DNA from: Candidatus Annandia adelgestsuga
Lineage (GTDB): Bacteria; Pseudomonadota; Gammaproteobacteria; Enterobacterales; Enterobacteriaceae_A
Assembly: GCF_003956045.1 (NCBI RefSeq)
Contig: NZ_CP026513.1
Coordinates: forward strand, 6,802 to 45,814
Length of the DNA stretch: 39,013 bases
Direction: 5' to 3'
Below, piece by piece: positions 9,978-14,127 of this stretch. Within the stretch, counting starts at the first letter, position 1; every line of letters begins with the position of its first letter. A program made the position numbers and the translations under genes. The notes under the pieces are model-generated. The model was given only the letters and a program-made list of their open reading frames with translations. It had not been told where the DNA came from and ran no database searches.

Positions 9978-11021
9978 ATGAAAAAAAATAAAAATTTTAG
10001 AATTTTAAGTCAAAAATCTTTAATTTCTCCTAAAAAATTAAAAAAAATATTTCCATTAAATAAATGTTTAAAAAATCAAGTTAAAAATTCTCGTAAAATT
10101 ATTTCTAATATTATTAAAAAAAAAGATAAAAGATTATTATTAGTATGTGGACCATGTTCTATACATGATATTGAATCTACTTTAGATTATGCTTATAGAT
10201 TAAAATCTATTGCAAAAATATTAGAAGATAAATTATATATTATTATGCGTGTTTATTTTGAAAAACCTAGAACAACTACTGGTTGGAAAGGTTTAATTAA
10301 TGATCCTTATATGGATAATTCTTTTAATATGGGTTCAGGTTTATATATTGCACGTAAATTATTAATTAATTTATTAAGTTTAAATATTCCTTTAGCAACA
10401 GAAGTTTTAGATTTAAATAATCCTCAATATATAGGAGATTTATTTAGTTGGGCAGCTATTGGTGCTAGAACTACAGAATCACAAATACATAGAGAAATTG
10501 CTTCTGGTTTATCAATGCCTGTAGGTTTTAAAAATGGTACTGATGGAAATTTAGAAACAGCAATTAATGCAATATGTGCATCTAAAATACCACATAGATT
10601 TGTTGGTATTAATCAATTAGGTAAAGTTTGTATATTACAAACTAAAGGTAATAAAGATGTTCATATAATTTTACGTGGAGGTAAATTACCTAATTATTAT
10701 AATAATGAAATAATAAAATGTGAAAAACAAATGTTAAAATCAAATTTAATACCATCTTTAGTAATAGATTGTAGTCATGGTAATTCTAATAAAGATTTTA
10801 ATTTACAACCAGAAGTTGCTAAAAATATTATTAAACAAATTAAATATAAAAATAATTCTATTATAGGATTAATGTTAGAAAGTAATATTAATGAAGGACA
10901 ACAAATTTTAACTAAAGACATTAATAAAATTAAATATGGTATTTCTGTAACAGATGCATGTTTAAATTGGAAAACTACTGAAAATTTATTATGTAATATT
11001 TATAAATCATTAATTAATTAA
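9978..11021 (+). CDS. aroF: 3-deoxy-D-arabino-heptulosonate 7-phosphate synthase, AroF type
   Basis: First step of the shikimate pathway: PEP plus erythrose 4-phosphate to DAHP. The 347 residues (E. coli AroF 356) show VCGPCSIHD, MRVYFEKPRTTTGWKGLIND, ATEVLD, GARTTESQIHREIASGLSMP, GFKNGTDGN, PHRFVGINQLG, HIILRGGK, DCSHGNSNKD and the metal-binding ESNINEG, so the active site looks intact. Assignment to the tyrosine-sensitive AroF paralogue rather than AroG or AroH rests on location directly before tyrA, as in E. coli, and on a similar N-terminus (LISPKKLKKIFPL). It lies 28 bases before tyrA and probably shares its transcript. I cannot tell whether tyrosine inhibition survives. Confidence 0.93.
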   Translation: MKKNKNFRILSQKSLISPKKLKKIFPLNKCLKNQVKNSRKIISNIIKKKDKRLLLVCGPCSIHDIESTLDYAYRLKSIAKILEDKLYIIMRVYFEKPRTTTGWKGLINDPYMDNSFNMGSGLYIARKLLINLLSLNIPLATEVLDLNNPQYIGDLFSWAAIGARTTESQIHREIASGLSMPVGFKNGTDGNLETAINAICASKIPHRFVGINQLGKVCILQTKGNKDVHIILRGGKLPNYYNNEIIKCEKQMLKSNLIPSLVIDCSHGNSNKDFNLQPEVAKNIIKQIKYKNNSIIGLMLESNINEGQQILTKDINKIKYGISVTDACLNWKTTENLLCNIYKSLIN

Positions 11022-11049: not shown

Positions 11050-12093
11050 ATGGTATCTGAAATTTTATCTTTAAGAAATAAAATAGATATTATAGATAAA
11101 AATATTATAAATTTATTATCTAAAAGATTAAATTTAGTATCTAAAGTTGGTTTAATTAAAAGTAAATATGGAATACCAATACATGTTCCTAAAAGAGAAA
11201 AATCTATTATAAAATCTCGTTTTTTAATTGCTGACAAATTAAAAATTTCTAAAAAATTAATAAAAGATTTAATGTCAAGAATAATGTATGAATCTTATCT
11301 AAAAGAATATTCTCATGGTTTTAAAAAAGTTAATTGTAATATTAAATGTATAATTATTATTAGTGATAATAATTATACTGGTATTTTATTTAAAAAAATG
11401 CTTCAACTTTCAAAATATAATGTTTATCTATTTAAACCTAAAGAAATAAATAAAATAAATATTATTAAATATAAAATAGATATGATTATTATTAGTATAT
11501 CTAATGAATCTTTGAAAAAAATTATGTTATTTATATTAAAATTATCTAAAAATTGTATTTTAGTTAATTTAAATGTAATTTCATATAAATATTTAAAACT
11601 TATTCTTTATATTCATAAAGGACCTGTTTTATTATTACAACCAAAATTTAATTCACAAACTTATAATTTAACTAAAAAAAAAATATATTATTGTAATGGT
11701 AGAAATTTTAAATATTATAAATGGTTTTTAAAACAAATGAAAATTTGGGGATTAAACATTATATGTATAAAAAATTTAAATTTTAATAATGACGAAATTT
11801 TTATTAATTTTTTAAAAATTTTTATTAATTTTTTATATGGATTAAATAAAATTAAAAAAAAAAATAAATCAAATAATCCACTATTATTTAATAATTTTAA
11901 TTTAAAAGATACAATTTTATTTTTTAAAAATAATCCTAATTTTTATATAGATAATATTATATTTAATAAAAAAAATATAATATTATTTATTGAATCATAT
12001 TGTAATAAATTTAAAAAATTTATTTATTCAATAAAAAATAATCAAAAAATTTTTTTAAAAAAATTTAACAAAATAAATAAATTATTTTTATAA
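11050..12093 (+). CDS. tyrA: TyrA: chorismate mutase domain intact, prephenate dehydrogenase domain apparently inactive
   Basis: The E. coli protein is bifunctional: chorismate mutase (about residues 1-95) and NAD-dependent prephenate dehydrogenase. Numbering matches E. coli to residue 200 without gaps. The mutase domain keeps R9, R26, K37, R49, E50 and S82. In the dehydrogenase domain the glycine-rich GGGG at 105-108 is S-D-N-N, the DLASVK motif at 173-178 is N-V-I-S-like with K178 lost, and catalytic His197 of HPMF is Gln (LQPKF). The histidines around E. coli 245 and 257 and the prephenate-binding arginine region are also replaced. Even so, all 347 codons stay open. The likely role is chorismate mutase feeding prephenate to PheA. 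The stop codon abuts that of convergent pheA, as in E. coli order. Confidence 0.92.
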   Translation: MVSEILSLRNKIDIIDKNIINLLSKRLNLVSKVGLIKSKYGIPIHVPKREKSIIKSRFLIADKLKISKKLIKDLMSRIMYESYLKEYSHGFKKVNCNIKCIIIISDNNYTGILFKKMLQLSKYNVYLFKPKEINKINIIKYKIDMIIISISNESLKKIMLFILKLSKNCILVNLNVISYKYLKLILYIHKGPVLLLQPKFNSQTYNLTKKKIYYCNGRNFKYYKWFLKQMKIWGLNIICIKNLNFNNDEIFINFLKIFINFLYGLNKIKKKNKSNNPLLFNNFNLKDTILFFKNNPNFYIDNIIFNKKNIILFIESYCNKFKKFIYSIKNNQKIFLKKFNKINKLFL

Positions 12094-13086
12094 TAATTTA
12101 AAATTTTTTTTATTTATTTTATAATATCCTATAAATTTTATATAATTAGATTTTTTTTTTATTTTATCTAAAATTTTTTTAAATTTAATAAAATTAAAAT
12201 TGTTTTTAAAGTTTATATATAATACTTCTTGTGATTTAAAATTCTTAAATATTCTATATTCTAATTTATTTATTATAATATTATTTTTATTAAATAATAT
12301 TATAATATTTATAATTTTATTATTATTTTTATTAAAATTAATAATTAAAATTATAAATTTATAATCAAAATTTTTAGTTATCAAATTTTTATTTGATAAT
12401 AAAATAAATTTTGTAATATTATTATAGTTATTAATATTTTTTCTTAATATAAATAAATTATATAATTTTGCTCCATTTTTACTACCTATAGCAGCTACTG
12501 AAAAAGAATTAATTTTTGAAATTATTTTCATAGCTGTAGAAGTACTATTAGTATTTATAAGATTTAATTTAGAAAATTTTTTTATAAAATTACTACATTG
12601 TTGAAATGGTTGTGAATGGCTATATAAAAAAATAATTTTATTAATATTATTTTTTTTTGAAGAAAGTAAACAATGATTTATTTTCATATTAAATTCTTTT
12701 AAAATATATAATTTAGAATTTATTAGTAAATCATATATTTCATATATAGATCCTGAATTAGTATTTTCTATAGGTAGTAAAGCAAAACTTTTATTTATAT
12801 TTTCAGTTTTTATTATAATTTCTTTAAAATTATAACATAATTTTAATACATTATTTTTATATTTATTTTTTATATATTTAATATATGCTATATTTGAATA
12901 AGATCCTTTTGGGCCTAATAAAAAAAAATTTAATATTTTTGATTTATTATATTTTTTTTTGAATTTATTAACTATATTTTTTTTTTTATAATTTTTTTTA
13001 TATTTTTTAAAATAAAAATATAAAATATAAAAAAAATATATAAAATAATATTTAAATTTTTTATATAAAATTTTTAAAAAAAACAT
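12088..13086 (-). CDS. pheA: Prephenate dehydratase PheA lacking its chorismate mutase domain
   Basis: Converts prephenate to phenylpyruvate, the precursor of phenylalanine. The dehydratase domain starts near residue 54 with FFLLGPKGSYS, followed by PIENTNSGSIYEIYDLL, INHCLLSS, YSHSQPFQQC, STSTAM, VAAIGSKNGAKLY and the catalytic TKF (family TRF). The C-terminal ACT domain is present but its phenylalanine-binding motifs are altered: ESRP reads EYRI and GALV is not recognisable. In E. coli about 100 residues of chorismate mutase precede the dehydratase; here there are about 50 residues of Lys, Tyr and Phe with no mutase motif. The true start is uncertain, since no other Met occurs before the dehydratase domain. 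No pheL-like leader peptide or attenuator is visible upstream. Confidence 0.92.
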   Translation of the reverse strand: MFFLKILYKKFKYYFIYFFYILYFYFKKYKKNYKKKNIVNKFKKKYNKSKILNFFLLGPKGSYSNIAYIKYIKNKYKNNVLKLCYNFKEIIIKTENINKSFALLPIENTNSGSIYEIYDLLINSKLYILKEFNMKINHCLLSSKKNNINKIIFLYSHSQPFQQCSNFIKKFSKLNLINTNSTSTAMKIISKINSFSVAAIGSKNGAKLYNLFILRKNINNYNNITKFILLSNKNLITKNFDYKFIILIINFNKNNNKIINIIILFNKNNIIINKLEYRIFKNFKSQEVLYINFKNNFNFIKFKKILDKIKKKSNYIKFIGYYKINKKNFKLL

Positions 13087-13171: not shown

Positions 13172-14127
13172 ATGAAAACAAAAATTATAAAAATAAAATT
13201 ATCTATTTTAAAGATTAAAAAAAGATTAGATTATGTTTTATCAAAAATATTATCAAAATTTTCAAGATCATATATAAAATATTTAATTATTAATAAAAAA
13301 GTTAAACTAAATAATAATATTGTTAATAAACCTAATACTTATGTTTCAAGTTATGATAAAATAAAAATTTTTTTTATTATAATTATAATAAATATTTATT
13401 TCCAGAAAATATAAAATTAAAAATTTTATATAAAGATAAAGATATAATAATAATTGATAAACAAAAAAATTTAGTTGTACATCCAGGTTTTGGTAATTTA
13501 AGTAAAACGATGTTTAATGCTATTTTATATCATTTTCCTGATAACGCTTCTTTAGAAAAAGCTGGTTTAATACATCGATTAGATAAAGATACAACAGGTT
13601 TAATAATAATTGCTAGAAATATGCTTTCTATGTTTTTTTTAAAAAAAGAAATAAAATTTAAAAAAATAATTAAAAAATATGAAGCTATTGTAATAGGAAA
13701 TATAAAAAAAAATAATATTATTAATAAACCTATTTTAAGAGATAAAATTATAAAAAATAAAATGTCAATTAATAAAAATGGAAAAATTGCTATTACAAAA
13801 TATAAAATTTTAGAAAAATTTAATAATTATACTCATATTATAATAAATTTAAAAACCGGTCGTACTCATCAAATACGTATACATATGGCTAGTTGTAATT
13901 ATCCATTATTAGGTGATAAATTATATAACAAAAAAAAAAAAAAATATTATAAAAATATGAAAAAAATATATAAAAAAAAAATTAAAAAAATTATTAATTT
14001 TCCTAGACCAGCTTTACATTCTACTATAATAAAATTTAAACATCCTAATAAAAAAAAAAATATTAAAATAACATCTAAATTACCAAAAGATATGTCTATT
14101 ATAATAAATTTATTAAAAAAAATGTAA
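13172..14127 (+). CDS. rluD: 23S rRNA pseudouridine synthase RluD, split by a frameshift in a T8 tract
   Basis: RluD makes pseudouridines at 1911, 1915 and 1917 in helix 69 of 23S rRNA. The first frame (13172-13414) encodes the S4 RNA-binding domain (RLDYVLSKILSKFSRSYIKYLI, NKPNTYVSSYDKIKI). The rest lies in the frame one base back: LKILYKDKDIIIIDKQKNLVVHPG, catalytic HRLDKDTTGL with the active Asp, KKYEAIVIG, TGRTHQIRIHMA and the C-terminal RPALHST region. The two frames meet at eight Ts (13368-13375) after five As. One extra U in the transcript would restore one continuous protein of the usual length. A second long run, 15 As at 13930-13944, lies further on. Divergent from pheA. Confidence 0.85.

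Follow-up and report, generated by a model that had tools for sequence, protein, structure and literature searches.

Chorismate mutase on TyrA and prephenate dehydratase on PheA: reciprocal domain loss in Candidatus Annandia adelgestsuga

Introduction

Candidatus Annandia adelgestsuga and Candidatus Annandia pinicola are old symbionts of adelgids (PMC8857208, PMC8692619), and the genome of the former, a single contig of 334,746 bp, carries tyrA and pheA side by side. The locus raises the question of which activities the two enzymes retain, and whether together they could still form one route to phenylalanine. An earlier note, made from the sequence alone, had proposed that TyrA keeps its chorismate mutase (CM) part while its prephenate dehydrogenase (PDH) part is ruined, that PheA is a prephenate dehydratase (PDT) without a recognisable mutase, and that the two half-enzymes supply phenylalanine and no tyrosine. 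The locus was analysed by profile searches, residue tables and structure models, and by comparison with the sister species and with other reduced genomes.

The tyrA–pheA locus

The window (the whole stretch of DNA analysed, 39,013 bp) comprises bases 6802–45814 of the contig and has a GC content of about 16.6%. The genes tyrA (11050..12093, + strand, 347 aa; open reading frame, profiles and residue table), predicted to encode an intact CM domain and an inactive PDH, and pheA (12088..13086, − strand, 332 aa; open reading frame and profile matches), encoding PDT without a CM domain, are convergent and lie 3′ of an aroF-type gene, an arrangement that E. coli K-12 shares. The aroF-type DAHP synthase gene upstream of tyrA (9978..11021, + strand) was identified by PF00793 (272 bits), TIGR00034 (491 bits) and alignment. 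Synteny around the locus is complete in the sister species (G001, 348,580 bp), the only congener in the collection and the second of the two species of the genus. At their 3′ ends the two genes share 6 bases (12088–12093), which leaves no space for a terminator between them.

Two further observations were made on the flanking genes. Position 148 of AroF (9978–11021; E. coli numbering) is Leu in the window species and Pro in the sister; P148L is a classical tyrosine-insensitive allele of E. coli AroF. An rluD-like pseudouridine synthase gene (13172–14127) is broken by a frame change at an A/T run near 13370–13420, and the sister gene (L031:6870–7819) has the identical break in the identical place, so the split gene is perhaps not dead but still read, by slippage.

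Mutase and dehydrogenase parts of TyrA

TyrA was compared, residue by residue, with the E. coli enzyme and with 44 TyrAs from non-symbionts, none of which varies at any position listed here. The CM (AroQ) domain (residues 1–90; 11050..11319, + strand) was matched by CM_2 over residues 8–85 with 62 bits (cut-off 27), and R9, R26, K37, R49, E50 and S82, the catalytic residues named in the earlier note, are all retained in both sister species. In the AlphaFold2 model this domain has a pLDDT of about 90 or more.

The remainder of the protein gave a different result. Searched with Pfam profiles, the nucleotide-binding half of PDH (residues 97–240; 11338..11769, + strand) was not detected by PDH_N, and the C-terminal, dimerisation half (residues 241–347; 11770..12090, + strand) reached only 14 bits with PDH_C, under the cut-off of 22. 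The T-protein model NF008400 was aligned to residues 1–346 with 250.1 bits, short of its curated cut-off of 273; an end-to-end alignment that stays below the cut-off marks the PDH part, judged by sequence, as a recognisable but failed homologue. All 13 PDH residues checked are lost in both species (G105, D173, K178, H197, M199, H245, D246, R256, H257 and S281, and further S282, R286 and R294). The NAD glycine loop GGGGQMG reads SDNNYTG, the SSPIYRLE segment is wholly missing, and HPMFGP has become QPKFNS, a derived motif common to both sister TyrAs that includes H197Q (codon 11638–11640). H197 is otherwise invariant in the TyrA family (review PMC1173090).

The AlphaFold2 model had pLDDT values of mostly 75–96 in the nucleotide-binding half and of 37–68 in the eroded C-terminal half, and its nearest solved structure was H. 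influenzae TyrA (2pv7; Z 22.8, rmsd 4.5, 193 residues). The model supports retention of the PDH fold, with a confidence that is partly borrowed, the underlying alignment consisting mostly of active relatives.

PheA

The PDT domain of PheA (residues 54–236; 12379..12927, − strand) was matched by PF00800 with 164.7 bits (cut-off 25.2), and its predicted fold matches the PDT structures 2qmx and 6vh5. No CM_2 match was found in PheA by Pfam profile search, and the CM residues R11, R28, K39, D48, R51 and E52 have no counterpart; the description of PheA as a PDT lacking a recognisable mutase thus held. The P-protein model NF007910 gave 214.7 bits (cut-off 577) with an alignment that starts only at model position 105. 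Where the CM domain belongs there is a low-complexity stretch (residues 1–50; 12937..13086, − strand) with a pLDDT of about 50, 32% identity to the sister and no CM residues. Residues 1–53 were also considered as a CM remnant, since they align beside the last CM helix, but the similarity is within chance for a sequence of low complexity. This N-terminal stretch is a leader and not a domain, and a mutase fold of residues 1–53, which would have contradicted the earlier note, found no support.

Residues and motifs were assigned the roles that they have in E. coli PheA. E159, N160, Q215 and T278 of the PDT site (E. coli numbering) are retained; R279, beside the retained T278, has been replaced by Lys in both species, and E232 by Asn; on this evidence PDT activity is probable but not assured. 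In the ACT-like region (residues 237–332; 12091..12378, − strand; alignment and residue table) the phenylalanine-binding motifs are gone in both species, GALV being replaced by NKII and ESRP by EYRI in the window species. Their loss fits a supply route that would run unregulated.

Conservation between the sister species

The sister carries the same TyrA, with the same PDH lesions and derived motifs, and the same CM-less PheA. Lesions and architecture being common to both, both losses predate the split of the species; the two host lineages separated more than 87 million years ago (PMC8692619). Since synonymous sites are near saturation (GC3 about 5%), dN/dS was rejected, and the neutral expectation was instead simulated with the substitution frequencies observed at 1,967 fourfold sites. 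By this rough yardstick, in which the sister sequence is the starting point and sites change independently of one another, the nucleotide-binding half of PDH is 70% identical between the species versus 22 ± 3% under neutrality, with 0 stops versus about 13 expected. Sister identity is 69% in the TyrA CM domain and 73% in the PDT domain; it is lower in the ACT region (59%) and in the C-terminal half of PDH (50%), still above neutral, and in the PheA leader (32%) it is near the neutral value of 23 ± 6%. The dead nucleotide-binding half is under purifying selection and is not decaying. Of the claim that the dehydrogenase was ruined, the loss of the catalytic site therefore stands, whereas the reading frame and the sequence proved to be conserved.

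These values bear on two other readings of the domain. It might be a pseudogene tail that awaits loss without selection, as decay is the rule in such genomes, no Pfam PDH model reached its cut-off and the C-terminal half diverges fast; yet the lesions are older than the split while the frame is open in both species, and the identity and stop counts of the nucleotide-binding half are far from neutral drift, which makes this reading improbable. Purifying selection would also be expected of a divergent PDH that is still a dehydrogenase or has a new activity (another substrate or a binding role), and PapC is an example, within this family, of a new substrate signalled by the loss of H197 (PMC1173090). 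The loss of the NAD loop, K178, H245, D246, R256 and SSPIYRLE argues against NAD-dependent chemistry, however, and we likewise give this reading little credence.

The route in the genome

Searches of the whole genome returned exactly one CM_2 locus and one PDT locus, no AroH-type CM (CM_1), no PDH_N match even at E<=1 and no PF00155 aminotransferase; chorismate synthase (aroC) is encoded. With these genes, the conversion of chorismate to phenylpyruvate within the genome must, as far as gene content can indicate, pass through TyrA and then PheA, and no tyrosine precursor would be formed. Both proposals of the earlier note on the route, that TyrA feeds prephenate to PheA and that no tyrosine is made, agree with this inventory: the sole CM within the genome is that of TyrA, and with the TyrA PDH site lost there is no PDH elsewhere to replace it. 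As no PF00155 aminotransferase is present, the final transamination must occur elsewhere. An annotation by presence or absence, which would score tyrA and pheA as 'present', would credit the symbiont with tyrosine synthesis beyond its capacity.

The route itself might be non-functional, both genes being remnants and a co-symbiont making the phenylalanine. The Pseudomonas partner of Annandia has redundant phenylalanine genes (PMC8692619), and tyrA and pheA diverge faster than most genes in the window. Against this, all CM catalytic and the key PDT residues are retained in both species, identity in the CM and PDT domains is far above the neutral level, and both aroC and the aroF-type gene have stayed intact; we consider a dead route unlikely. 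For a working route, the partner symbiont could still be a phenylalanine maker too. Tyrosine might be made from phenylalanine by the host, as the earlier note supposed, or come from a co-symbiont, which could even be a source of prephenate.

Proposed history and a role for the dead domain

We infer the following order of events. In the ancestor of both species the N-terminal CM of PheA would have been lost first, with TyrA still covering the step, and the TyrA mutase would thereby have become the only CM of the cell. Tyrosine synthesis would then have been abandoned by inactivation of the PDH site of TyrA. The gene would have had to stay, its mutase domain being needed for prephenate, and so would the dead PDH domain, without which the mutase probably cannot fold or function as it should. 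At present chorismate from AroC would be converted to prephenate by the TyrA mutase and to phenylpyruvate by the PheA dehydratase, and the last transamination would be left to the host or a partner. That the PheA CM went first is suggested by two other reduced genomes (G046 and G400) that show the intermediate, with the PheA CM gone and TyrA complete. Taken as a whole, the present-day route included, we regard this account as likely to be correct.

The dead PDH domain is probably a scaffold that the mutase needs. This is the leading explanation because in E. coli TyrA both activities drop when the domains are separated (Chen et al. 2003, as reported in the review PMC1173090). The nucleotide-binding half has diverged to a similar extent as the CM domain (70% versus 69% identity), far from neutral; the erosion of the C-terminal half (50% sister identity) weighs against the scaffold account. 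The locus offers a natural test case of whether the TyrA mutase needs its partner domain.

Comparison with E. coli, Buchnera and other reduced genomes

With E. coli the Annandia locus shares aroF–tyrA facing pheA, a full-length TyrA alignment, the PDT and the TyrA CM residues; it differs in a TyrA without the PDH active site and a PheA without the CM domain and the phenylalanine-binding motifs. In E. coli and the aligned non-symbiont TyrAs and PheAs all mutase residues are kept. Buchnera aphidicola keeps its CM on PheA. Like Annandia it makes a phenylalanine precursor and no tyrosine and is without tyrB; unlike Annandia, in which the CM sits on TyrA and PheA has lost its own, it has discarded TyrA (loss of TyrA and tyrB: PMC1173090).

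Ten reduced genomes with a CM were examined (G000, G001, G046, G065 and G395–G400), which are not independent samples. All ten retain exactly one intact CM copy, and either copy may be the one kept. In G046 (1.1 Mb) and G400 (0.8 Mb), both reduced Enterobacterales, PheA is a PDT and the only CM is on TyrA at the same locus, as in Annandia; a frame-broken CM remnant lies just upstream of PheA in G046. Unlike in Annandia, their TyrA is complete, including the PDH site, so a tyrosine precursor is still possible and loss of the PheA CM does not require loss of PDH. In G065 (1.0 Mb) the one good CM is in TyrA and there is no PDT.

G400 is one of six genomes (0.8–0.9 Mb) in a genus that also includes Pantoea sp. 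SoEX (G395), and the mirror image was found among its other members. At the same locus, G395, G397 and G399 have also lost one redundant CM inside a fused enzyme, but here the CM of PheA is intact (with V at D48 in G397) and that of TyrA lacks R9, R49 and more, while H197 and the NAD loop of PDH remain. In the stinkbug symbiont Pantoea sp. SoEX itself (L045:4598–6882) the TyrA CM carries R9H, R26K, R49K and E50D, with PDH kept. In G396 and G398 PheA is intact and the locus lacks TyrA. At a minimum, the PheA CM would have been lost in the genus of the window species, in G046 and in G400, and the TyrA CM in the SoEX group. A five-protein tree of the locus, which was not used for rooting as long AT-rich branches distort it, speaks only against a sister relationship of G046 and G400.

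The complementary split of two bifunctional genes, which the earlier note did not know to be described, is thus present in Annandia; it is no one-off, as resolution to a single CM recurs, and in both directions. No description of a reciprocal TyrA/PheA split was found in the literature searched, the original genome paper lying outside that search. As a phenomenon the split is of a known type, in which genome reduction removes redundancy within fused enzymes. Such hidden redundancy is resolved by domain and not by gene, and the first domain loss constrains later losses. Shrinking Enterobacterales symbionts may follow a rule of keeping exactly one CM, with an accidental outcome between TyrA and PheA; where TyrA wins, tyrosine synthesis would then be dropped and PDH trapped as a maintained pseudoenzyme scaffold. 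We give this generalisation an even chance.

Minor observations were made on further genomes. All three CM-damaged TyrAs (L045, L149 and L151) also carry R286K and H257Y/Q in PDH, a coincidence that may reflect an altered substrate or altered tyrosine control. No relative was recovered when the contigs were scanned with the PheA protein; a scan with an alignment returned mainly free-living Enterobacterales and Pantoea sp. SoEX, and no Buchnera sequence. Two larger genomes of one genus (G016 and G285; L135 and L136) have a single CM_2 in a frame of TyrA length and a separate PDT frame of about 280–300 aa; a TyrA-borne mutase with a free PDT may thus also occur outside symbionts.
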